A DNA stretch of 50,221 nucleotides from Terriglobia bacterium. Lineage in GTDB: Bacteria; Acidobacteriota; Terriglobia; Bryobacterales; Bryobacteraceae. The stretch is taken from contig JAJPHS010000027.1 in assembly GCA_021325175.1 (NCBI GenBank), positions 1 to 50,221 of the forward strand. Direction: 5' to 3'. The notes beneath the pieces were generated by a model, which saw only the letters and a list, made by a program, of their open reading frames with translations, did not search any database and had not been told where the DNA came from. Every line of letters starts with the position of its first letter. Position 1 is the first letter of the stretch. A program made the translations under genes and the position numbers. This document shows positions 1,880 to 43,730 of the stretch, piece after piece.

Positions 1880-3112
1880 CTATATTTCCGGCTCGGAAAC
1901 GAGAATCGCTCCGTGGCAGGCCAACTCCGCCAGAAATTCCTTGAGGTCGTTCACCGGAAATTGGTCTTCAAAGCGGCGGCAAAACTCGGCGACCGATAGG
2001 GGCGCCGAATGCGAAAGGTAATCGAGCAGGGGAACAGTCGCGTCACTGAACGTCAACTCCTTGCCGGCAAAGGCGATCTTTATATCGCCGGGCTCCGCGT
2101 CCGGTTTAGGCCGAAAACCCGACGGCGACCCGAGCGTAATGATGGCGTCCGCCGAATCCGGCAGGATTTTTGGCGTCGCGCTCGCGGGAAGGCTGAAGCG
2201 GGGGCGGCGGTCCGAGGTCGCCTCCACATGATCGAGAAATTTTTCGATCAGATCCTCGTCGCGCAGCATATTCGCGACATTTTCCCGAACGGCGGCCAGA
2301 TACTTCCGTTGATTTTCCCGATCCCCGAATCGCGGTAAATCCATTCGCAGCAGCTCGCTCGCTGCCAGATCCCGCATCGCCCATTCCACCAGCTTGATGC
2401 CCGTCGGGGGATGGAGGCCGGCGGTCAAATGCATCGTCGGCTCATCGAGCGGAGTCACCACATGCCACCATCCCCGCGGAATGTAGAGCAGATCTCCGGG
2501 CGTTAAAACATCGTCGAAAACCGGCTCCAGCGACAGCACGTCGGGCTTTTGTTGGGTCTTGTAGCTGATTGGATAGCGTTCCGTGGGGCGGAAGACTTTC
2601 CAGTGCTTCGGGCCTTCGATCTGAAGAATGAAAACGTCGTGGGCGTCGTAGTGCAGGTCGAATCCCGGCGAAGACCGCCAGCTCGCGTACAGATTCACCT
2701 GCACGACGCTGCGCGTTGCCACCTCCAATCCCTCCGCCACGGATCGGATGGGAGGATGCAGCCTATCGATCTCGTTCAAAATGAGACTGGCGCCATCCCT
2801 CAGATGGGCGATGATCGCGGGCGCATTGGGCGACTGCGTCGAACTGCCGGAAACCGTATAGCGGGTAGTTAAAAAAGAAGCGAGCGGCAACTGCGTGCCC
2901 TCTTTCGACATCCGCAGTTGCGGCGCAACCGCCTGATAGGAAAGAATGCCGTTCAGCGCCCGCCAGGAGAGAATTTCCCGGAATTTTTCCCGATGCCCGC
3001 GAATTGCGAGAAAATCGTTGCCCAGATATTGGTCGAAAAACCTCGCTTCCTGCTCCGGAGCGATGAGAGCGGATAAGCAATTCGAAGGATGAGTTAGCTG
3101 TGGGATGCCCAT
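1880..3112 (-). CDS. JmjC/cupin Fe(II)- and 2-oxoglutarate-dependent oxygenase
   Basis: 410 residues from the ATG at 3112. A longer frame from a TTG at 3163 would overlap a good promoter (3145-3174), so the ATG is preferred. The core resembles the Cupin_4/ribosomal-oxygenase branch. DLHYDAHDVFILQ supplies the His154-x-Asp156 iron ligands, the stretch GPKHWKVFRP follows, and GDLLYIPRGWWHVV gives the distal His217. The last 65 residues look like a small winged-helix domain, as in the YcfD/MINA family. Known relatives hydroxylate protein side chains (Arg or His of ribosomal proteins; FIH hydroxylates Asn/Asp/His). The substrate here is unknown. Its divergent neighbour encodes a decapeptide array containing Pro and Asp, an obvious candidate. 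A ribosomal substrate or another protein remains possible. Confidence 0.8.
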   Translation of the reverse strand: MGIPQLTHPSNCLSALIAPEQEARFFDQYLGNDFLAIRGHREKFREILSWRALNGILSYQAVAPQLRMSKEGTQLPLASFLTTRYTVSGSSTQSPNAPAIIAHLRDGASLILNEIDRLHPPIRSVAEGLEVATRSVVQVNLYASWRSSPGFDLHYDAHDVFILQIEGPKHWKVFRPTERYPISYKTQQKPDVLSLEPVFDDVLTPGDLLYIPRGWWHVVTPLDEPTMHLTAGLHPPTGIKLVEWAMRDLAASELLRMDLPRFGDRENQRKYLAAVRENVANMLRDEDLIEKFLDHVEATSDRRPRFSLPASATPKILPDSADAIITLGSPSGFRPKPDAEPGDIKIAFAGKELTFSDATVPLLDYLSHSAPLSVAEFCRRFEDQFPVNDLKEFLAELACHGAILVSEPEI

Positions 3113-3144
3113 TTGAGACGCAAGACGGCTGGTTGCAGTCTCAA

Positions 3145-3174
3145 AGAATACTTCGCAATGCAAAAAATTGTCAA
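3145..3174 (-). promoter_or_regulatory. Sigma-70-like promoter of the oxygenase gene
   Basis: On the minus strand TTGACA (3174-3169) is followed by an 18-base spacer and TATTCT (3150-3145). The predicted transcript start near 3138 leaves a leader of about 25 bases before the ATG at 3112. This is the best consensus-like promoter in the window and argues against the upstream TTG start. Confidence 0.55.
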
Positions 3175-3503
3175 CACCCCCCGGCCGTAATGGAGCCCGT
3201 TTTTGGGACTCCTGGACTTCTTCACGCCTCTGGCAGACGGCTCGTTTGCGTGAATAAATTCAGCGTAACCGCATGAAGTGAAAATCCTTAGCTCTGCTTT
3301 CTGGAGCGGGATAAGGGAATCCGCGAAGCTTGAGGCGGCTTGCGGTGAGATCCGCTCGCGGCGGCTGTCCTTTGGTACTACGGATTTTTCTTAGTAAGTT
3401 TGCTAAGAGTTCCTTAGATAGGATAAGGTATCGATCTTAGCGCGAGTCTGCCGAAAGTACTAGCGCCGGGAGCGGATTAATTTAAATGGAGCAGGTGTGA
3501 ACA
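3175..3503. other. Regulatory intergenic region between oxygenase and repeat peptide
   Basis: About 330 bases without a convincing gene. The right part is AT-richer and carries repeated CTTAG/CTAAG pentamers (about 3288, 3389, 3402, 3412 and 3436). One pair forms an inverted repeat, TCTTAG-8 nt-CTAAGA at about 3388-3407. The block 3407-3446 resembles one upstream of the dksA-like gene (separate entry). No obvious -35/-10 for the peptide gene was found. AGGTG at 3493-3497 is a plausible ribosome site, 6 bases before the peptide ATG. Confidence 0.4.
3407..3446 (+). repeat. Copy 1 of a shared intergenic element
   Basis: This block reads GAGTTCCTTAG, 9-10 variable bases, then GGTATCGATCTTAGCG. 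A second copy at 16970-17007 reads GAATTCCCTAA, then GGTACCGATCTTAGCG. The 16-base core differs at one position and the left arm at three of eleven. Both copies lie upstream of a rightward gene with an intervening leader (about 60 and 120 bases). It could be a promoter for an alternative sigma factor, a regulator site or a small dispersed repeat. Confidence 0.45.
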
Positions 3504-3761
3504 ATGTTGAAAATTAAGAAAGTAGCCCTATTGTGTGCTACAATCCCCTTGTCGATCAGCGCTGGAAATTATGCGAAGTCGGTGCTTGCCTCCGGTCCTG
3601 GACCGTCTGTGGATGGTTTCACGGCCATGGTGTCCGGTCCTGGGCCTTCTGTTGACGGTTTCTCTGGCCCTGGGCCTTCTGTTGACGGTTTCTCTGGCCC
3701 TGGGCCTTCTGTGGATGGGTTCTCCGGTCCCGGGCCTTCTGTTGACGGGTTCGCGTCATAA
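3504..3761 (+). CDS. Decapeptide-repeat peptide (five SGPGPSVDGF units), candidate modified-peptide precursor
   Basis: 85 residues. Residues 1-29 form a leader: a basic start (MLKIKK), a hydrophobic stretch VALLCATIPLSISA, then GNYAKSVLA. This fits a Sec signal peptide with possible cleavage after SISA or SVLA, but could also be a RiPP-style leader. Residues 30-39, 44-53, 54-63, 64-73 and 74-83 are five identical SGPGPSVDGF units. TAMV lies between the first two, and AS closes the protein. Within the repeats there is no Cys, Lys, Arg or Thr. The gene is monocistronic, with a strong terminator 94 bases downstream. I do not recognise the family. It may be a multi-core precursor modified by the divergent oxygenase, or a secreted repeat peptide; the context supports the first as a hypothesis only. 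Confidence 0.75.
   Translation: MLKIKKVALLCATIPLSISAGNYAKSVLASGPGPSVDGFTAMVSGPGPSVDGFSGPGPSVDGFSGPGPSVDGFSGPGPSVDGFAS
3591..3752 (+). repeat. Five 30-bp coding repeats with only synonymous differences
   Basis: Units lie at 3591-3620, 3633-3662, 3663-3692, 3693-3722 and 3723-3752, with a 12-base insert after the first. Variation occurs at the third base of eight of the ten codons (for example GTG GAT versus GTT GAC). No difference changes an amino acid. This is not a CRISPR array: the units are contiguous and in frame. Confidence 0.9.
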
Positions 3762-3854
3762 GCCTACTGTCTTTCCTGCGAGCCGATCGGCCGCCCTTGG
3801 CTTTGACAATCGCGAATTTGGATTGACCAAGTTATTTTTTTCAGGAAGTTTTTT

Positions 3855-3882
3855 GGCCAGCAGAATTTCTGCTGGCCTTTTT
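3855..3882 (+). terminator. Strong intrinsic terminator after the repeat peptide
   Basis: GGCCAGCAG (3855-3863), loop AATTT, then CTGCTGGCC (3869-3877) form a perfect 9-bp stem followed by TTTTT (3878-3882) and a second T-run at 3885-3888. A T-tract precedes the stem. It is the clearest terminator in the window and ends the peptide transcript before the next gene. Confidence 0.85.
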
Positions 3883-3910
3883 CCTTTTCCGGTTGAGTTG
3901 CGCTAAGCCT

Positions 3911-4666
3911 ATGGACAGGTTTTACGAATTCCTGGCTCCGCTGCTCGAAGTCGGAATCATCTTTTCGCTTGCGTTGGTTCTGGTCTTTCTAATCGCTGGG
4001 CGATTTTATAAGTATTGGGCCGTGCTGGCTTACGTTGCCTGGGAGCTTGTGGCCACCTTGGCATTCACGATCGCCGACGTCATTTTTAACGGGAGCTCGC
4101 CGGAACAACAGGACAAATCGGCGCAGTTGCTGTACGCTCGCCTGTATTGGACGAATGACGTGCTGGTGGATCTTTTCCGCTTTGTGCTGGTCATCTTGCT
4201 CATCTACATGGTGTCGGAAGGATCAAAACGCGTTTCTGGGACCTGGCTGGCGGTGATCGTAGCGGCGGCGCTCGTTTTGCCATTCATGCTCTTTGACCGC
4301 GATGTTCGGGTTGTCGAGATGGGTTCCATGCACTTCCGTTTTCCTGCGACGTTATGGTTCCAGAGCACCAGCGAACTGCTCAATTTCGGCGCGGCGATTA
4401 TGAATTTGATTCTGTGGATAAAACTACTGGCGTCAAGGCAGCGCGATCCGCAGATTCTGCTGGTCAGCCTCGGGCTGGGCATTGTGGTCACCGGAACGGC
4501 CATGGCTTACGGCGTGCGCCACCTGCTCGGCGCGCGGGAGTTCAAGGCGGTTGGATACGTGATCATGAATTTAAGCCAGTTACTCGGCTGGCTGATATGG
4601 TGCCGCGCCTTCCGGCCCGCGGCGAAAACACGGGCGCCGGTAAAGTCGGCCGTTTCTTCGATCTGA
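3911..4666 (+). CDS. Seven-helix integral membrane protein of unknown function
   Basis: 251 residues from the ATG at 3911. A TTG at 3893 would add six residues; neither start has a clear ribosome site. Hydrophobic segments near residues 10-28, 36-60, 85-106, 116-132, 150-175, 187-206 and 220-242 give seven predicted helices with short loops. There is no recognisable enzyme motif, and helix 5 carries the polar run QSTSELLNFG. I do not recognise a named family; similar anonymous seven-helix proteins occur in acidobacteria. It starts 33 bases after the terminator of the repeat peptide and ends 63 bases before the ADOP permease, so cotranscription with the permease is possible. Confidence 0.7.
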   Translation: MDRFYEFLAPLLEVGIIFSLALVLVFLIAGRFYKYWAVLAYVAWELVATLAFTIADVIFNGSSPEQQDKSAQLLYARLYWTNDVLVDLFRFVLVILLIYMVSEGSKRVSGTWLAVIVAAALVLPFMLFDRDVRVVEMGSMHFRFPATLWFQSTSELLNFGAAIMNLILWIKLLASRQRDPQILLVSLGLGIVVTGTAMAYGVRHLLGAREFKAVGYVIMNLSQLLGWLIWCRAFRPAAKTRAPVKSAVSSI

Positions 4667-4729
4667 AATGGCGGCGCAGCGCCGCTTCATTTTTTTACTG
4701 CGGAAATTGGTGTAAAATCTTTTGAATTG

Positions 4730-7150
4730 ATGGAGACCATTTTTCAGGATTTTCGTTTCGGCGCGCGGGTATTGCTGCGTGCGCCGCTGGTCGCGGTCTC
4801 CATTATCGTCGTGCTCGGGCTCGGAATTGGCGCCAATTCCACGATGTTTGGCATATTGGACGGCCTTTTCCTGCATTCCGTTCATTATCCGGATCCGCAG
4901 ACGCTGGTTTTTGTCTGGAGCGTCGATTCACAGGGCGCGCTGAGCAACGCCTCCGCCGCCGATTATCTCGATTTTCGAAGAAAAACAAAAACTCTTTCCG
5001 ACGTCGCCGCCTGGAGTCCGACCTCGCTGGTCTTTCTGGCCGGGGAGCGGCCGCGCCAGTTGGGCGGCGCGCGCGTGACCGCGAATTTCTTCCGCACGCT
5101 TCGCGTCAAGCCGATTCTCGGCCGGACGTTCCTGCCGGATGAGGACGGAATCGAAAATCCGGCCCACGCCGCCCGCTCGGTGGTCATCAGCTACCGGCTG
5201 TGGCAGGAGGATCTGGGTGCGGATCCCAACATTCTCGGCCGCACGGTGCTCATCGAAGCTTTGCCCTACACCATCATCGGTGTGATGCCGCCGAATTTTC
5301 AATTCTGGTGGCGGCCGCACGACCTTTGGATTCCGGTCTCGCTTGATCCGAACCAGCGGGACTACCGCAACCTGGCCCTAATCGCGCGGACAAGGGCGCC
5401 GCGGGCAGCGGTCAAAGCTGAAATGAATGTCCTGGCGCGCTCGCTGGCCGACGCCTATCCGAAAAGTGATAAAGGGTGGACCGTTCTGGTGGAGGGGCTC
5501 GAGGAGCGGCTACTCAATCGCACCTTCCGCCTGCGCCTGCTGCTTGCTTCGGCGGCGGTGGGGCTGGTTCTGCTGATCGCCTGCGCGAATGTGACCGGAT
5601 TACTGCTGGCGCGGTCGGCCGCGCGTAATCAGGAGTTCGCGGTGCGCGTTTCTCTCGGCGCTACGGGCTGGCGGCTCGGACGCCAGTTGCTGGCCGAAAG
5701 CGCGCTGCTGGCCCTTGCGGGGGGCGCCGCGGGACTGGCGATCACCTGGACGCTTATCCGGGCCATTCCGGCGCTGGTTCCGTCGGCGGTGATCCCCACC
5801 GGCTCGATCGAGCTGAATGGCGTCGTCATCTCTTTCTGCCTGGCCGCTTCCGCGGTGACGTGCCTTCTGGTCGGATTGGCGCCGGCCTTGGCGGTGGGCC
5901 GGTCGGGAACGCAGACGGCGTTAAGATCGGCCCGCACCACGGGTCCGGGGCGATCGCCGCTGCGATTCCGGCAGGCTCTGGTGGCGGGAGAAATTGCCAT
6001 CGCGCTGATCCTGCTGGCGAGCGCCTGGCTGATGATGGGCAGCCTGCGCGCGCTGACGGGCGCCGATCCCGGATTCGATGCGGCAAATGTCTTGACGCTT
6101 CGCGTAGTAATTCCCGCGGCCAAGTACGACGGTCCGCAGGCAGCGCGCTTTTTTGCGAACGCGCGGGAGCGGATTGCGGCGCTGGCCGGCGTCGAAGCGG
6201 CGACGATGGCCACGACGCTGCCGCACATGGTGAACGGGATGATGGTTCGCTTCGACCGTCAGGATTCGCCGCGCGACGAAGCGCAGCAGCCCAGCGCCGC
6301 CTATGCGGGCGTGGGGCTGGACTATTTCACCACGTTAAAAATTCCGCTGAAGCGCGGCCGCCTGTTTACGGAATCCGACAATGAGCGCGCCAAGCCGGTG
6401 GCCATCGTCAGCGAGGATTTTGCACAACGCTATTTCCCCGGACAGGACCCGGTCGGCTCCATGATTCTCATTTATCGTCCTACCCGAACCAACGGTGAAG
6501 AACGGGTCATTGTCGAGATCGTGGGCGTGGCCGGAAACATAAATCTGGGCGCGCTGTCGGCCGATACGCGCAGCATGATTTACGTGCCGTTTGCGCAGAA
6601 TCCGTACTCCCGCACGGTGCTATTCGCGGTTCGTGCGCGGGGAAATTCCGCCAACCTGGCCAGCTCCGTTCGCGCCACCTTCGCCTCGCTCGATCCCGAA
6701 CAACCCGTCGATCGTGTGACCCCGCTCGAACAGTTGCTTGGGATTCTGTTTGCCGAGCCGCGCTTTGAAACCAGGCTGATGGGATGCTTCGCGCTGCTGT
6801 CGCTGCTCCTTGCGGCTATCGGAATCTACGGCGTCAACGCTTATTCGGTAGCGCAGCGCCGCGCCGAGATCGGGCTGCGAATGGCGCTGGGCGCGAGCCG
6901 CGGCGCGGTCTTGCGCGAAGTGATCGGGCGGGGCCTGCTGCCGACGCTGATCGGCATCGGCCTCGGGCTCGCCGGATCAATATCGATGATGTTCTGGCTG
7001 AAGTCCGTTCTGGTGGGCGCAATGTCACCGGACCCGCTGGCGTTCATCGGAGCCGCGCTGCTGCTGAGCGTGGTGGCGTTGATCGCCTGCTATGTGCCGG
7101 CGCGCAGCGCGACACAAATCGATCCGGCGATCGCGCTGCGGGCGGAATAA
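4730..7150 (+). CDS. ADOP-family ABC transporter permease (MacB/FtsX type)
   Basis: 806 residues from the ATG at 4730; a TTG directly before it is an alternative. It has the ADOP layout: an N-terminal helix (about 18-40), a MacB-type periplasmic domain (about 50-240), a first FtsX-like membrane block (about 270-440, including VGLVLLIACANVTGLLLARS), a second periplasmic domain (about 460-665) and a final FtsX block (about 680-806, with the conserved RRAEIGLRMALGAS). The family partners with a MacB-like ATPase and is thought to move lipids, peptides or drugs, or to act mechanically across the envelope. No ATPase is encoded nearby. TAAAAT at 4713-4718 could be a -10. Paralogue families of this type are large in Solibacter-like genomes. 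Confidence 0.92.
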   Translation: METIFQDFRFGARVLLRAPLVAVSIIVVLGLGIGANSTMFGILDGLFLHSVHYPDPQTLVFVWSVDSQGALSNASAADYLDFRRKTKTLSDVAAWSPTSLVFLAGERPRQLGGARVTANFFRTLRVKPILGRTFLPDEDGIENPAHAARSVVISYRLWQEDLGADPNILGRTVLIEALPYTIIGVMPPNFQFWWRPHDLWIPVSLDPNQRDYRNLALIARTRAPRAAVKAEMNVLARSLADAYPKSDKGWTVLVEGLEERLLNRTFRLRLLLASAAVGLVLLIACANVTGLLLARSAARNQEFAVRVSLGATGWRLGRQLLAESALLALAGGAAGLAITWTLIRAIPALVPSAVIPTGSIELNGVVISFCLAASAVTCLLVGLAPALAVGRSGTQTALRSARTTGPGRSPLRFRQALVAGEIAIALILLASAWLMMGSLRALTGADPGFDAANVLTLRVVIPAAKYDGPQAARFFANARERIAALAGVEAATMATTLPHMVNGMMVRFDRQDSPRDEAQQPSAAYAGVGLDYFTTLKIPLKRGRLFTESDNERAKPVAIVSEDFAQRYFPGQDPVGSMILIYRPTRTNGEERVIVEIVGVAGNINLGALSADTRSMIYVPFAQNPYSRTVLFAVRARGNSANLASSVRATFASLDPEQPVDRVTPLEQLLGILFAEPRFETRLMGCFALLSLLLAAIGIYGVNAYSVAQRRAEIGLRMALGASRGAVLREVIGRGLLPTLIGIGLGLAGSISMMFWLKSVLVGAMSPDPLAFIGAALLLSVVALIACYVPARSATQIDPAIALRAE

Positions 7151-34585: not shown

Positions 34586-35994
34586 GCCATGCTCCGCGCG
34601 GGGGCCGGCGGCTGGCGCCATTCCTGGTCGGCAACGCGCGCGACGGAGATAATAATCCCTCCCATCGCCGGCAAATAAAACCGGTAAGCTAGCGACAGAA
34701 AGAAAATCGCGACACAGAATCCGAGCAGCGACAGGCTTAAGGCGATCACGGCGACGCGGAGCATATCATTCCGCTCGTTTGACGGCTGATTGCGGGACCG
34801 CAGCCACAGCCTCCGCAGCAGAAGAAAGCTCGACACCAGCGCGCCGGCAAAGAAAATAAAAGCCGGAATGCCGGCCTCGCTTGAAACTTGCGTGTAGGTG
34901 TTGTGCGTTTCATGCCAGCTTCCGCGGCGGCCCTTTTCTCTCGCCACGCTGGCCTCGGCATCCATGAATTCCCCACTCCCCACGCCGAAAACCGGATGCG
35001 TGATCGTGAGCCACAGACTCTCCTGAAGAACGAATTTTCGCGCGTCGAGCGATTCGGCGGCCTCTCGGCTTACCGGATCGTACGCCGGCGCATCCGTATC
35101 CTCCAGCGTCATCAGCCGGTGCACGGTCTCCGGCGGAAGCAGCAGACCTAATCCGATCATCGCCACCGGCAAAAGAACCGAAAATGTGATTTTCCAGCCC
35201 GCCGATGCGCGCCAAAAGCACACCAGCGCGAGCGCTACCAGCGACAGCATCGCGCCGCGCGAGCCGGTCCGCAAAATCAGATAAAGCCCGTAGCCCAAAC
35301 CGAGCAGCGAAAATGCGCAAAGCAACAGATTGCGCTTGCGCGAAAGCAGCGGGATCAGCAAAAACGGCAGCATTAACACCAGTTGCGCCGCAAAATCGTT
35401 GGCGTTGCTCATCGTTCCGGTGAACAGCTCCAGGCGCGTCCGCAGCTCATCGGATTGAAGAAAGCGGGCCATGAAAACGTCCACGAGCGCCGCGTAAAAC
35501 ATCACCCGCATCAGCCGCTGGAGATCGGTAAACGTGAGCAAAAGCCCCGCGATCAGAAACAGCATGACGAATTCGGTGCGCAGATAACCCCAAACCCTGA
35601 GCAGCGATCCCATTTTGTAAGAGCTGAACGGGATTCCCAGGATTAACCAGGCCGCGAATCCGAGCCAATATCGCGCCAGATTCCACTGCAAAGTGCGCCG
35701 CGCCCCGCCGCTGGCCAGCATCGCAAGCAGCGCGGGGGGAACCAGAAGGTACAGGATGTAAGTATCGCCAAAATACGTCGCAATCCACTCATGAATGCCC
35801 GTGAAACGCACAAAAACGGTAATTAATGCAAGAACGCAGCCGATTTTCCTGAGGACATCGTTTTCCGCTCCCCGCGTCCGGAGGTTAGAGACCGCGCGAG
35901 GGACCTGCGGCGGGGGCGCGACCGGCTGCGCGGGCGCCGGCTGGCTGCGCGCCGCCTTCAGCGGGCGGGCGGTGCTCAAAGATTTGGAGAGCAT
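34582..35994 (-). CDS. O-antigen ligase/polymerase-like membrane protein
   Basis: 470 residues from the ATG at 35994. A Pro/Ala-rich N-terminus (about 8-35) is followed by ten or more helices. A large periplasmic loop between about 300 and 370 carries DARKFVLQESLWLTITHPVFGVGSGEF and GSWHETHNTYTQ. The conserved G-x-G...H-x-x-x-N pattern marks the Wzy_C/WaaL family that polymerises or ligates lipid-linked sugar chains. TATAAT (minus strand 36028-36023) lies 28 bases upstream. It is coupled to the GT4 gene by a 4-bp overlap. Confidence 0.85.
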   Translation of the reverse strand: MLSKSLSTARPLKAARSQPAPAQPVAPPPQVPRAVSNLRTRGAENDVLRKIGCVLALITVFVRFTGIHEWIATYFGDTYILYLLVPPALLAMLASGGARRTLQWNLARYWLGFAAWLILGIPFSSYKMGSLLRVWGYLRTEFVMLFLIAGLLLTFTDLQRLMRVMFYAALVDVFMARFLQSDELRTRLELFTGTMSNANDFAAQLVLMLPFLLIPLLSRKRNLLLCAFSLLGLGYGLYLILRTGSRGAMLSLVALALVCFWRASAGWKITFSVLLPVAMIGLGLLLPPETVHRLMTLEDTDAPAYDPVSREAAESLDARKFVLQESLWLTITHPVFGVGSGEFMDAEASVAREKGRRGSWHETHNTYTQVSSEAGIPAFIFFAGALVSSFLLLRRLWLRSRNQPSNERNDMLRVAVIALSLSLLGFCVAIFFLSLAYRFYLPAMGGIIISVARVADQEWRQPPAPARSMA

Positions 35995-37062: not shown

Positions 37063-40000
37063 ATGAGGGTTATTTTTGACAGACGCGCGGTGGTGGGGCT
37101 TTTGGCGGCCTTGCCGCTTCTCGCTTCGGAAAGCGCCGGCGTCGTCAAATTCGGCGGGCTGCCGCTGCCTGGCGCGACCGTTACCGCTTCCCAGGGCGGC
37201 AAAAAAATCGTCGCGGTGACGGATGCGGATGGAAAATATTCCTTTGCGGATCTGGCCGATGGAGTTTGGACCATCGAAGTCGAGATGCTGTGCTTTGAAA
37301 GCGCCAGGAAAGAGATCCCTGTTGCCAAGGACGCGCCACCGGTCGAATGGGACCTGAAGCTGCTGCCGATCGAGCAGATCAAGGCGATCGCCGGTCCGGC
37401 GGCGCCGCCCGAGCCGGCGATTTCGGTAGGGCCGCCCGAGTCCGCCAAAAAGAATGCTCCGGCATTTCAACGCACGGATGTAAAAGCGTCAGCGACGCCG
37501 CCGCCATCGGAGCCGCAAAGCGCCGATTTCGCCAATGCCTCGGAAAGCGAGCTGAGCCAGCGCGCGAGCGACGGTTTTCTGATCAACGGAACCGCCAACA
37601 ACGGAGCCGCCTCGCCGTTCGCGCAGGCACAGGCGTTCGGCAACAATCGCCGCGGATTCCGCTCGCTCTACACCGGCGGGATCGGCTTCACGTTCGACAA
37701 TTCCGCGCTCGACGCGCGCACCTATTCGATTACCGGCCAGGATACGCCGAAGCCGGCCTACAACAATATGACCGGCATGTTGTCGTTCGGCGGTCCGTTG
37801 AAGATCCCGCGCCTGTTCAATAACGGCCCGTTTCTCGCGCTGAATTATCAATGGACGCGCAATCGGAGCGCCGCCATCGCCGACGCTCTGATGCCCACGG
37901 CGGCCGAGCGCGGCGGCGTGTTTCCGAGCACGATTGTCGATCCATCGAACGGCGCGCCGTTCGACAATAACGTGATCCCGGCCGGCCGGATCAGCGCCCA
38001 GGCTCGCGTGCTACTAAATTTCTATCCGCTGCCGAATTTCGCCAGCGCTCAATACAATTACCAGGCGGCGCTGGTGACGACGACGCACATGGACGCCTTG
38101 CAGGCGCGCACGAATAAAACGATCGGGCGCAAGAATCAGCTCGCGGGAAATTTCGCGCTGCTCAGCAGCCGGGCGGATAATCCCAATATCTTCAATTTTC
38201 TGGATACGACGGACATGCTCGCCTATGTGGCGGGCGTCAACTGGAGAACCACGCTGATGCCGCACCTGTTCGGAACCCTCGGCTATCAGTTCAGCCGGGC
38301 CTCGACGCGCAGCGCCGCGTTTTTCGAAAATCGCGAAAATGTTTCCGCGGCGGCGGGGATCACCGGCAACAATCAGGACCCGATGAATTGGGGTCCGCCG
38401 TCGCTCGCATTTTCGAGCGGCATCGCCGGGTTGTCCGATGGGGATGCGTCGTTCAATCGCCGCCAGACCAGCGCGCTTTCTTATTCCCTGTTCTGGTATC
38501 GCACGCGGCACAACGTGACCTTCGGCGCCGATTACAAGCGGCAGGAGATGAACAATCTGGGCCAGCAGAACGCGCGCGGCGCTTTCACCTTCACCGGCGC
38601 GGCGGCGGGAAACGACTTCGCGGATTTTCTGCTCGGCATCCCCGATACCAGCTCGATTGCGTTCGGCAACGCGGACAAATATTTTCGCGATAATCTGTGG
38701 AATCTTTACGCCAACGATGACTGGCGCGTCAGTCCCGAGTTGACCCTCGACTGGGGCGTGCGCTGGGAGTATGCTTCGCCGATCACGGAAAAATATGGGC
38801 GCCTGGTGAATCTGGACGTCGCGCCGGGATTTTCCGCGGTCGCGCCGGTGATCGCGATCGATCCCACCGGCCCGCTGACCGGCGAAAAATATCCGGCATC
38901 GCTGATGCAGCCGGACCGAAGCGGCGTCGAGCCGCGGCTGGCGCTCGCCTGGCGCCCGCTTTCGGGGTCATCGATGGTGATCCGCGCCGGTTACGGCGTG
39001 TACTACAACACCTCGGTTTATTCGCAGATCGCGCAGCAACTGGCGCAGCAGTATCCTTTATCGAAAAGCCTGAGCGTGGCGAACAGCCCGTCGGATCCGC
39101 TGACGCTTGCCAGCGGATTCAACGCCTCGCCCGCCACGACGCCGGATCTGTTCGGCATCGATCCGCATTTCCGGGTCGGATATGTGCAGAACTGGCAGGC
39201 GTCGGTGCAGCGCGATCTGCCCGGCGCGCTGGTGATGACGGCGACCTATCTGGGAATCAAAGGCACGCGCGGCGTTCAGGAATTTTTGCCGAACACCTAT
39301 CCGATCGGCGCGGCGAATCCCTGCCGGTCGTGTCCTTCGGGATTCGTGTATGTCGCCTCCAACGGCAACTCGACGCGCAACGCCGGCGTTCTGCAACTGC
39401 GCCGGCGGCTGCAAAGCGGATTCACCGCCACGCTGCAGTACACGTACTCCAAATCGATCGACGACGACGCGGTGCTCGGCGGAAATACGCAGCTTGCGAC
39501 GGTGAATTTGGCTCCGGGGCAGGGGTCCGGCGGCATGGGCATGAGCCCGGCGGCGGCGATGACCATCACCTCCGGAGCGAGCTCGCAAGCCGCGCCGATG
39601 ATCGCGCAAAACTGGCTGGATCTGAGCGCGGAACGGTCGCGCTCCAGCTTCGACCAGCGGCATCTTTTAAATTTCCAGATGCAGTACACCACGGGCATGG
39701 GGCTGCGCGGGGGAACGCTGGCGAGCGGATGGCGCGGCGCGCTGTGGAAGGAGTGGACGGTGGCGGCGCAAGTCAATGCAGGCTCGGGATTGCCGCTGAC
39801 GCCGCTTTATCTCGCCGCCGTTCCAGGAACGGGCGTTACCGGGACGATCCGGCCGGACTACACCGGCGCGCCGCTTTATTCGACGTCCACGGGATTGGCG
39901 TTGAATCCGGACGCCTTCATCGCGCCGGCGGCTGGCCACTGGGGTGACGCGGGGCGCAATTCGATCAACGGACCGGCGCAGTTCTCGCTGAGCGCCTCGC

Positions 40001-40182
40001 TGGGGCGCACGTTTCGCGTGAGCGATCGCTGGAATCTGGATCTGCGCGTCGATTCGATGAACGCGCTCAATCATGTAACCTATTCGAGCTGGAATACGAC
40101 GTTCGGCAGCCCGCTGTTCGGGTTGCCGGTGGCGGCGAATGCGATGCGCAGCTTGCACACGACGCTGCGTTTGAGGTTTTAG
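37063..40182 (+). CDS. Oar-like/TonB-dependent outer-membrane receptor
   Basis: 1039 residues. The signal region includes GLLAALPLLASESAG. A carboxypeptidase-regulatory domain spans about 25-100 (GLPLPGATVTASQGG..VTDADGKYSFADL). A Pro-rich linker precedes the plug (about 160-300, with SLYTGGIGFTFDNSALDARTYSITG). From about 250 to the end the sequence is a beta-barrel of amphipathic aromatic strands and ends in ...HTTLRLRF, the usual C-terminal Phe. I see no clear TonB box. Such receptors take up large substrates or anchor surface assemblies. It precedes the VWFA gene by two bases. Confidence 0.9.
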   Translation: MRVIFDRRAVVGLLAALPLLASESAGVVKFGGLPLPGATVTASQGGKKIVAVTDADGKYSFADLADGVWTIEVEMLCFESARKEIPVAKDAPPVEWDLKLLPIEQIKAIAGPAAPPEPAISVGPPESAKKNAPAFQRTDVKASATPPPSEPQSADFANASESELSQRASDGFLINGTANNGAASPFAQAQAFGNNRRGFRSLYTGGIGFTFDNSALDARTYSITGQDTPKPAYNNMTGMLSFGGPLKIPRLFNNGPFLALNYQWTRNRSAAIADALMPTAAERGGVFPSTIVDPSNGAPFDNNVIPAGRISAQARVLLNFYPLPNFASAQYNYQAALVTTTHMDALQARTNKTIGRKNQLAGNFALLSSRADNPNIFNFLDTTDMLAYVAGVNWRTTLMPHLFGTLGYQFSRASTRSAAFFENRENVSAAAGITGNNQDPMNWGPPSLAFSSGIAGLSDGDASFNRRQTSALSYSLFWYRTRHNVTFGADYKRQEMNNLGQQNARGAFTFTGAAAGNDFADFLLGIPDTSSIAFGNADKYFRDNLWNLYANDDWRVSPELTLDWGVRWEYASPITEKYGRLVNLDVAPGFSAVAPVIAIDPTGPLTGEKYPASLMQPDRSGVEPRLALAWRPLSGSSMVIRAGYGVYYNTSVYSQIAQQLAQQYPLSKSLSVANSPSDPLTLASGFNASPATTPDLFGIDPHFRVGYVQNWQASVQRDLPGALVMTATYLGIKGTRGVQEFLPNTYPIGAANPCRSCPSGFVYVASNGNSTRNAGVLQLRRRLQSGFTATLQYTYSKSIDDDAVLGGNTQLATVNLAPGQGSGGMGMSPAAAMTITSGASSQAAPMIAQNWLDLSAERSRSSFDQRHLLNFQMQYTTGMGLRGGTLASGWRGALWKEWTVAAQVNAGSGLPLTPLYLAAVPGTGVTGTIRPDYTGAPLYSTSTGLALNPDAFIAPAAGHWGDAGRNSINGPAQFSLSASLGRTFRVSDRWNLDLRVDSMNALNHVTYSSWNTTFGSPLFGLPVAANAMRSLHTTLRLRF

Positions 40183-42269: not shown

Positions 42270-43730
42270 TCAGCGCGGCTTGGGATCCCAGAAGACGCGG
42301 CAATCGCCGACCCCGGCTTTGTTTTTGAACAGCGGAGCGAGGTTGTCCTCGACGAACCATCCCTCATCCTCGCAATATTCGACGGCGTAGTATTGGCCTG
42401 TTTCGACGCGGCGTTGAAGGTCCGCGCGGGAGATCACGTGCAGCAGTGCGGCCTGTTCGGGCGGAAGAGCCAGCTTGTGCGAATCACGGCTCGCCAGAAC
42501 CGGGTCGGGAAGGCGATGGAGAAGAAAGAAAATGGCCTCATCGGCCAGCAGCGGGCGATCCGGCGGGACGACTTGCTTTACCTTGGCGGCGGTGGCCTCA
42601 AGGTCGCGCCACTGGAGGTCGTCGCGGATGTCGTATAGATTTTTGCCGGTGTCGAGGATCGCGATCGCGCAGACGAGGGCGACCGGCAGCCACGGCCGAT
42701 CGGGCGACCACAGCCGCGCGCCGGCGTGGTAAATTCCCGCGGCGGCGAGATAGGCCAGAAACGGCGTCGTGAACAGATAGTAGCGGGCAAAGGTCGGATG
42801 CGCGCTGGAGATGTGCGCGGCCAGAGCCAGCGTCAGCAAAGCGCAGAGATAAAATTCCCGCTTGCGCTCGCGCTCCCATTCCGCGCGGAACCAGACGAAG
42901 AGCACGCCTCCGAGGGCCAGCAAAACGAGCAGCAGGGCCTGCGGAAAATCGATGAGGCCGGCCATGGTCTCAAGATCGTGGCGGATGGCGCCTTCCCATT
43001 GAACCTGGCGATAGTACAGGTGATATTGAACGATGCAGAACCACGTCTGGCGCGGCGCCTGAGCATAGAGCCGCAGGATGGGAAGAATCGCGAGAACGCC
43101 TCCGGCGGCGAAGGCGGCGAATTTCCACCAGCGGCTTCCGGCGCGATTGCAGAACATAATCCACAGCAGCAGGACCGGCGCGACGGGCGCGGTGAGCAGC
43201 GATCCTCCGGCGGCCAGTCCGGCGGCGAATCCGGCGGCGAAGGACGCGAAAACGCGGGGGCGCTCGACCGCGGAGGCCGCGAAGGAAAACGCGGCGACAA
43301 TCCAGAGCAGGCAGAATCCGTAGGCTTGGGAAAGCGGTCCAAATTCGACCACCGCCAGATTGGTGGCGACCAGCACGGAGCAGAAGATCGCGGCGGGCAG
43401 TCGCCAGGCGGCGGCCGGGAATCGGCGCAATGCGAACCAGCCGATAAGGAGGGCGGCAAGCGAGACTTCGAGGGCGGCGACGGCGTGCGTGGTCCGCCAG
43501 CTTTCCGCTGCGACACGCATCCAGAACGCGTTCCAATACGCGTTGAGAGGGGTCTGCGGGAACATGAAATCGATGTACGGCCGCCGTCCCGCCTTGATCA
43601 ATTGCGCGGCGAGGGAATGAAATCCTTCATCCCAGGCGAAGGCGAACGTCTGCGAATACGCGAGCAGGCCGGCGGCGAGGAGCGCGCAAACGCCCCATAG
43701 CGGCAACGCGCGCGGCTTTGGTTCCATCAT
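42270..43730 (-). CDS. GT-C membrane glycosyltransferase
   Basis: 486 residues, two adjacent ATGs at the start. About ten helices; the first loop carries FAWDEGFHSLAAQLIKAGRRPYIDFMFPQTPL, with the acidic pair and the Pro-Gln-Thr-Pro pattern of GT39/GT87-like enzymes. A soluble periplasmic tail (about 395-486) contains Cys residues (VEYCEDEG, GDCRVFWD). The start is 4 bases after the cytochrome stop, so it belongs to the respiratory operon by position, an odd pairing. Its stop abuts the VWFA stop directly. Confidence 0.82.
   Translation of the reverse strand: MMEPKPRALPLWGVCALLAAGLLAYSQTFAFAWDEGFHSLAAQLIKAGRRPYIDFMFPQTPLNAYWNAFWMRVAAESWRTTHAVAALEVSLAALLIGWFALRRFPAAAWRLPAAIFCSVLVATNLAVVEFGPLSQAYGFCLLWIVAAFSFAASAVERPRVFASFAAGFAAGLAAGGSLLTAPVAPVLLLWIMFCNRAGSRWWKFAAFAAGGVLAILPILRLYAQAPRQTWFCIVQYHLYYRQVQWEGAIRHDLETMAGLIDFPQALLLVLLALGGVLFVWFRAEWERERKREFYLCALLTLALAAHISSAHPTFARYYLFTTPFLAYLAAAGIYHAGARLWSPDRPWLPVALVCAIAILDTGKNLYDIRDDLQWRDLEATAAKVKQVVPPDRPLLADEAIFFLLHRLPDPVLASRDSHKLALPPEQAALLHVISRADLQRRVETGQYYAVEYCEDEGWFVEDNLAPLFKNKAGVGDCRVFWDPKPR

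Follow-up and report, generated by a model that had tools for sequence, protein, structure and literature searches.

The window, a stretch of 50,221 nucleotides from a Terriglobia bacterium, carries a putative repeat-peptide precursor gene and, directly downstream on the same strand, a gene for a predicted seven-helix (7TM) membrane protein, and this pair is a conserved cassette of the Terriglobia. We regard it as almost certain that the two-gene cassette is real. Our best reading, to which we give roughly an even chance, is that it encodes an exported multicopy signalling peptide together with an adjacent 7TM receptor or partner. The earlier note on this DNA described a leader-bearing, probably exported multicopy peptide of an acidobacterium, which our analysis supports. 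That account stands in part: absent from it were the partner gene, the class-wide spread, the Pro-rich core and the promoter elements. The features are collected in Table 1.

Table 1. Features of the cassette and its surroundings in the window.
Feature	Position	Strand	Basis or remark
JmjC_2-domain protein	1880–3163	−	Domain search; divergent from the peptide gene
Upstream element TTGGTACTACGGATTTTTC	3372–3390	+	Conserved in the G181 orthologue
Genus motif ATAAGGTATCGATCTTAG	3423–3440	+	Motif search, held-out test
Element AAAGTACTAG	3454–3463	+	Contains words enriched upstream of cassette genes
Putative repeat-peptide precursor ORF, 85 aa	3504–3761	+	Sequence; orthologues and analogous class-wide ORFs
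Leader, 29 aa, probable Sec signal	3504–3590	+	KIKK, hydrophobic stretch, SVLA directly before the first unit
Repeat copy 1, SGPGPSVDGF	3591–3620	+	Sequence
Spacer TAMV	3621–3632	+	Sequence
Repeat copies 2–5, contiguous	3633–3752	+	Sequence and Tandem Repeats Finder
Terminator-like hairpin, 10 bp stem then T-rich tail	3855–3884	+	Between the peptide and 7TM genes
Partner gene, 251 aa seven-helix membrane protein, unnamed family	3911–4666	+	Homologues, models, topology; predicted N-out/C-in
ADOP-type permease (TIGR03434)	4727–7150		Downstream of the 7TM gene

The precursor in the window and its orthologues

The precursor ORF starts with ATG at 3504 and stops with TAA at 3761. Its product is laid out as MLKIKKVALLCATIPLSISAGNYAKSVLA, one SGPGPSVDGF unit, TAMV, four contiguous SGPGPSVDGF units and a closing AS, with the units beginning at residues 30, 44, 54, 64 and 74. 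All five are perfect, as the earlier note had it, although the TAMV spacer after the first copy went unmentioned there; the leader that it described does precede the first unit. By the general cleavage rule A29–S30, directly after SVLA, is a plausible signal peptidase I site. Tandem Repeats Finder independently calls a 30-base array at 3639–3752. Neighbouring copies show 14 synonymous and 0 non-synonymous differences, and all copy pairs taken together show 42 and 0, which confirms the claim that the DNA differences are synonymous only and that selection acts on the peptide. Neither Pfam nor NCBIfam gives any family match for the window precursor, in agreement with its having been assigned to no described family, and a family search with six other precursors yields only matches under the curated cut-offs. 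Among known RNA families, nothing scores above the gathering score in window positions 3000–4200. Three further short tandem repeats occur in the window, at 35902–35951, 39975–40032 and 43206–43241.

A tblastn search with the precursor in 257 genomes of the order returns two convincing orthologues, G181 and G178, both from the window's genus. The G181 orthologue keeps the five-copy layout and the TAMV spacer, and every unit reads SGPGPAADGF; in G178 there are seven SGPGPGSDTF units, of which five continue with GF. In view of these two arrays, the array of the window is not a chance occurrence. Between the window and G181 two codons (SV to AA) have changed alike in all five copies, so that, at the protein level, the evolution of the unit is concerted. 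The third-base patterns differ among the copies within each of these two arrays. Weak tblastn matches (E up to 1) are spread over 206 of the 257 genomes; the six that we examined (L002, L007, L008, L016, L018 and L024) are apparently unrelated. L007 (1178–2155, minus strand), from another genome of the family, is an unrelated 325-residue ORF with many GGQAAKGGGY-type repeats.

The partner protein and its class-wide pairing with repeat ORFs

As the precursor is too short and too variable for BLAST, the 7TM product was used for the family search. Homologues are found in 22 of the 23 genomes of the genus (E up to 0.001), in 116 of 257 genomes of the order (E up to 1e-12) and in 159 of 399 sampled Terriglobia genomes (E up to 1e-10), 51 of the 159 belonging to the window's family. 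In a sample of the phylum, 5 of 297 genomes match (E up to 1e-8), and all five are Terriglobia. The number of candidates that these searches scored in each genome was limited. Flanking DNA was examined for 103 of the 124 order matches, the window among them, and for 40 loci that the class search added, one inside the window's family (G046) and 39 outside it, where 108 genomes match; in both sets these are mostly the better-scoring matches.

An automatic scan detects a same-strand, in-frame tandem-repeat ORF upstream of the 7TM gene at 110 of these 143 loci (78 of the 103 from the order and 32 of the 40 from the class search). At five loci (L118, L133, L185, L277 and L280) a single-copy upstream peptide was read by eye, at 12 of the 143 the contig ends within 500 bp of the 7TM gene on its upstream side, and at 16 the 7TM gene is present and no upstream peptide was detected; two of the latter, L192 and L193, fall in the window's 7TM clade. 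The refuting outcome that the earlier note named, a lack of homologues with a variable leader or copy number, did not occur: a comparable repeat ORF occupies this position at more than 100 loci. The peptide-less loci are spread over the 7TM tree; four of them (L165, L166, L167 and L173) form a clade and others, for example L192/L193, are close pairs, so that the pairing of putative precursor and 7TM gene looks ancestral with later losses. A single detector applied to the 0–600 bp upstream of the 7TM gene finds a repeat ORF in 90 of 111 regions. The same count is 0 of 138 in control regions 300–900 bp downstream, 0 of 95 in regions 1,400–2,000 bp upstream and 0 of 111 in shuffled upstream regions. 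That the adjacent repeats are meaningless low-complexity sequence beside a conserved membrane protein is hardly credible: slippage does make repeats and the unit does change quickly between lineages, but the class-wide constant position, these three empty controls and the pN/pS value given below contradict it.

Seventeen of the 110 arrays start at a contig end, and for most of them the leader is invisible. Contigs break inside the array just 5' of the 7TM gene at L097, L102–L104, L108, L110, L148, L149, L152 and other loci; such breaks hide peptide genes in assemblies. The cassette usually occurs once per genome. Genome G193 has two, on contigs 108 and 170 (L176 and L180), with different units, FHGPDGDPGGDGN and HGPVRPPGGGTNIVA.

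At the level of sequence, the precursor holds between one and about 11 copies of a short core, in most cases rich in Pro and Gly, preceded by a leader wherever the contig reaches that far. The predicted core is near-absolutely constant within a gene and changes between lineages. The core types include HGPxxPPDPW-type and ISPLPPPDPWGDGL-type units, and by lineage one finds HGPxxPPDPW..., IGPSPAPIPPR, NTSSPVPVTPW plus one variable residue, NGTAPPPAPW, and IGADPVPLPP plus three variable residues; further examples are HGPTIPPDPWDGVRLA, HGPLLPPDPWETVAAVRVG, ISPLPPPDPWGDGLA, FGPLPPPPVEDVIYLK, AHIAPPPDIWEL, AGPWPFPDDSAGGNIA, HGPVRPPGGGTNIVA and IGPSPAPIPPRSSMA. The unit of the window shows this Pro-rich theme only partly. 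Proline makes up 27% and glycine 12% of the unit residues, and the mean net charge is −1.03, with 71 of 109 units negative, 23 neutral and 15 positive. Cysteine is present in the first units of 2 of the 109 arrays, L190 and L174 (HGPVVPPDDGACCRLT and AHGPVPPPDCDTCTVV), as opposed to those of the other 107. Among relatives, 73 of 84 leaders combine a hydrophobic 12-mer with a Lys or Arg in residues 2–12, some starts being mis-set. Locus L112, whose frame the script misread, is counted among the 110 array loci on the strength of its true frame and is left out of the charge, anatomy and pN/pS figures.

Between adjacent copies of the 109 arrays we count S = 1348 and N = 174 (pS 0.366, pN 0.017, ratio 0.046), and the ratio is below 0.5 in all 97 arrays that have at least three differences. 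Picking arrays by amino-acid similarity biases pN/pS downward but cannot create a pS of 0.37, and a pS of 0.366 with an almost fixed protein sequence requires selection. The differences concentrate between the cores, a profile that is partly circular in that the anchors are the most frequent words, and linker length is unequal within 11 of the 83 arrays in which at least three anchors occur. In the 91 arrays that are not cut by a contig end the copy number ranges from 1.5 to 10.9 units with a median of 3, figures that short-read assemblies may have lowered by collapsing copies. L179 (G192) and L180 (G193) share the same unit and have identical 7TM proteins over the aligned part, with five and two copies, respectively, which is either real variation or assembly repeat collapse.

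The AlphaFold model of the partner, obtained with 57 window and locus sequences, has seven helices (pLDDT 87.4, pTM 0.83), with a hairpin in the second outer loop, which joins helices 4 and 5. Mean Lys+Arg counts are 2.6, 3.4, 2.8 and 2.2 for the inner loops and C-terminal tail and 0.04, 0.6, 1.3 and 0.5 for the N-terminus and outer loops, which by the positive-inside rule gives an N-out/C-in topology. Among the Foldseek matches listed nearly all are GPCRs, LYCHOS being first in both searches, and the best E-values, 2.3e-3 and 1.2e-2, do not fall below 1e-3. A PDB sequence profile search with the 7TM family gives no match. In Pfam and NCBIfam no family at E up to 0.01 is common to more than 2 of the 57 members; the best weak matches are OppC_N (1.1e-4) and the MAB_1171c family (3.9e-4), in one member each, and there are single weak matches to the sensor domains MASE3, 7TM-7TMR_HD and 7TMR-DISM_7TM and also to transporters, that to 7TMR-DISM being weak and confined to one member in each scan. 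The protein has no cytoplasmic output domain. In the models it thus resembles GPCRs, microbial rhodopsins and 7TMR-DISM proteins in its seven helices, N-out/C-in orientation and second-outer-loop hairpin, and it differs from them in having no significant sequence or fold match; `GPCR-like' describes its topology, not its family membership.

Distances between units and between 7TM proteins correlate (Mantel r = 0.571 for 107 loci; the largest of 999 permutations is 0.064), but co-descent alone predicts such a correlation. In the 7TM protein, the outer half shows no enrichment of unit-linked columns (mean partial r 0.005, as against 0.001 for the inner half; p = 0.37 in a permutation test with 80 outer and 110 inner columns). 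Column by column, the regional means of co-variation are all near zero, the highest being 0.047 for five columns of the second outer loop.

Upstream elements and neighbouring genes

Cassette loci share candidate upstream elements, one of which, a palindrome, hardly occurs in its exact form away from the cassette in the genomes that were scanned. The elements are not uniform, and genus, family and class sample each have another: TAAGGTGt-TCTTAG at about −79 in the genus, the palindrome CTAGGAwAAATCCTAG some 130 bp before the start in the family, and AGTAC-N4-GTACTATTG in the class sample. Their motif likelihoods lie above those of one shuffled set per group. In a held-out test, which supersedes a lax 8-bit cut-off, the 5% shuffled level is exceeded by 13 of 14 regions in the genus, 29 of 42 in the family and 9 of 22 in the class sample, the last figure marking the class motif as weak. 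Best sites of the genus motif lie 63–145 bp before the assigned start codon in 12 of 14 cases. The element TTGGTACTACGGATTTTTC has its sole match at up to three mismatches here in the window's 4.26 Mb genome.

The exact TAGGAwAAATCCTA occurs at nine sites in 19 genomes; eight are upstream of the cassette and the ninth is on contig 294 of G088. As the pattern was derived from cassette loci, its presence there is by construction, and its rarity elsewhere is the result. Allowing one mismatch adds 18 rows, five at the cassette (G205, G095, G098, G123 and G233) and 13 elsewhere, compared with 7 for a reversed control pattern. Three of the 19 genomes (G071, G125 and G127) have no site at up to one mismatch.

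The terminator-like hairpin between the two genes is also present at the G181 and G178 loci. It splits the two genes of the window, and co-transcription of the window cassette is therefore unsupported. As a general feature of the cassette an intergenic terminator was rejected, being found at only 14 of 109 loci (2 of 109 after shuffling).

Neighbours were clustered for the 103 order-level loci, a crude procedure that undercounts (the 7TM gene itself reached 83). Besides the 7TM gene the commonest cluster, at 30 of the 103 loci, is an ExeA-like AAA ATPase (named by eye) upstream of the cassette, at L127 about −1377 to −486 from the 7TM gene; it possibly marks an exopolysaccharide or secretion neighbourhood. 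The ADOP permease was considered as a peptide exporter and rejected, with its cluster at 6 of the 103 loci, and no exporter recurs beside the cassette in this crude clustering. Likewise, no processing protease is found as a constant neighbour, and no modification enzyme or cyclase is one among the clustered loci. At L165, L166, L167 and L173 the 7TM gene follows about 110 bp after a PAS/HisKA-like/receiver ORF, with no repeat peptide detected in between. The Pfam scan of these kinase-type ORFs covered L165, which matches Response_reg (2.5e-16) and PAS_3 (8.6e-9) and, below the cut-offs, HisKA (3e-4) and HATPase_c (0.026). Nothing else connects the 7TM family directly with signal transduction, and this connection is circumstantial.

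Possible functions of the cassette

In the mechanism that we propose, the leader would direct Sec export of the precursor and would then be removed, and proteases would cut or trim at the variable linkers, so that a single core peptide is set free in many copies. Outside the inner membrane this peptide would act as a lineage-specific signal; the 7TM protein would bind it and report inward, possibly via two-component proteins. This model is suggested by a core that is fixed within a gene while copy number and linkers are free, by copies that all change together, and by two genes that stay paired while other neighbours change. The core unit rather than the whole chain is probably the functional product, and the chances that the 7TM protein is a receptor or sensor for it appear evenly balanced.

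The signalling reading draws on the constancy of the cores beside variable linkers, a pattern also seen in multicopy precursors of peptide hormones. Yeast α-factor, neuropeptide precursors and plant CEP/CLE-type precursors are exported and contain several identical cores with short variable spacers, and some plant peptide-hormone families have Pro-rich cores. The cassette precursor is alike in its identical cores and short variable spacers. It differs in being bacterial and paired gene to gene with one 7TM protein, and its units differ in that dibasic pairs are rare (e.g. L152 and L170); the likeness is one of layout. In the ComX/ComP and AgrD/AgrC systems a small exported peptide of lineage-specific sequence is encoded beside a polytopic membrane protein. 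The cassette shares the position of the peptide gene and the lineage-specific peptide, and differs in its multicopy precursor, a partner without a kinase domain and no maturation gene recurring as a constant neighbour in the clustered loci.

Alternatively, the 7TM protein may mature or export the peptide, as an intramembrane protease, modifying enzyme or channel, to give a RiPP-like product, which we consider unlikely. The constant adjacency of the two genes would fit, and so would several near-identical cores and linkers after one leader, since multicore RiPP precursors, such as those of the cyanobactins, also consist of a leader and several cores; a divergent JmjC_2 oxygenase in two genomes speaks for it as well. 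The cassette differs from these in its probable Sec-type leader and 7TM neighbour, no enzyme family is backed by more than 2 of the 57 7TM members, and the lack of a modification enzyme as a constant neighbour in the clustered loci makes a classical RiPP less likely. The same lack bears on the suggestion of a modified multi-core or secreted repeat peptide in the earlier note, of which the multicopy, leader-bearing character holds and modification does not find a constant enzyme. The divergently transcribed JmjC_2 oxygenase, with an orthologue 83% identical in the same place in G181, is the sole possible basis for the oxidised forms that were envisaged there. It has no match in 20 of the 23 genomes of the genus and is present in three, adjacent to the cassette in two (the window genome and G181). 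As a general maturase it was rejected, given that G178 has the peptide and no JmjC match; it could modify the peptide in the window/G181 sub-lineage only.

A bacteriocin with its immunity protein, the cores inhibiting competing strains and the 7TM protein protecting the producer, is quite unlikely. Class II bacteriocin loci have the same gene order, a small peptide gene followed by that of a small membrane (immunity) protein, and here too a small leader-bearing peptide gene precedes that of a multi-helix membrane protein, with units that differ between lineages yet remain paired with the 7TM protein. However, the repeats are Pro-rich and mostly neutral or acidic (94 of 109 cores have a net charge of 0 or below), unlike the charge of membrane-active antimicrobial peptides, and no exporter recurs in the crude clustering of order-level loci. 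A cassette conserved throughout the class, with a shared core theme and usually one copy per genome, is also unlike an arms-race locus.

Decidedly improbable is a structural surface polymer, in which an uncut Pro-rich chain would lie in the matrix or envelope and be anchored or sensed by the 7TM protein. Long Pro/Gly-rich arrays of up to about 11 units and the frequent ExeA-like ATPase upstream are in line with it, while the single-copy members, the variation of linkers around constant cores and the several precursors of less than 100 residues (window, L256 and L268) argue against it.

We thus prefer an exported multicopy signal with a 7TM receptor or partner. The cassette is apparently new as a system: neither protein is named in Pfam or NCBIfam, the titles and abstract openings of the literature searched do not describe it, and its mechanism is what we infer. 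Such peptides are easily overlooked, being short, repetitive ORFs that have no family name and are often on contig ends. More tentatively, and with less than even confidence, the cassette could be an undescribed hormone-like language of the Terriglobia, in which each lineage would send out its own short Pro-rich peptide in many copies and sense it through a dedicated, convergently GPCR-like seven-helix receptor, under the control of its own promoter element. With cores of 10–15 residues, synthetic peptides can be ordered from the sequence and direct culture tests are possible. Acidobacteriota are among the commonest soil bacteria. To our knowledge no peptide signalling system has been described in this phylum, and none appears in the titles and abstract openings searched. 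If our reading is true, the class-wide cassette would give Acidobacteriota a peptide signalling system, with a multicopy hormone-type precursor, unusual in bacteria, facing a 7TM protein.
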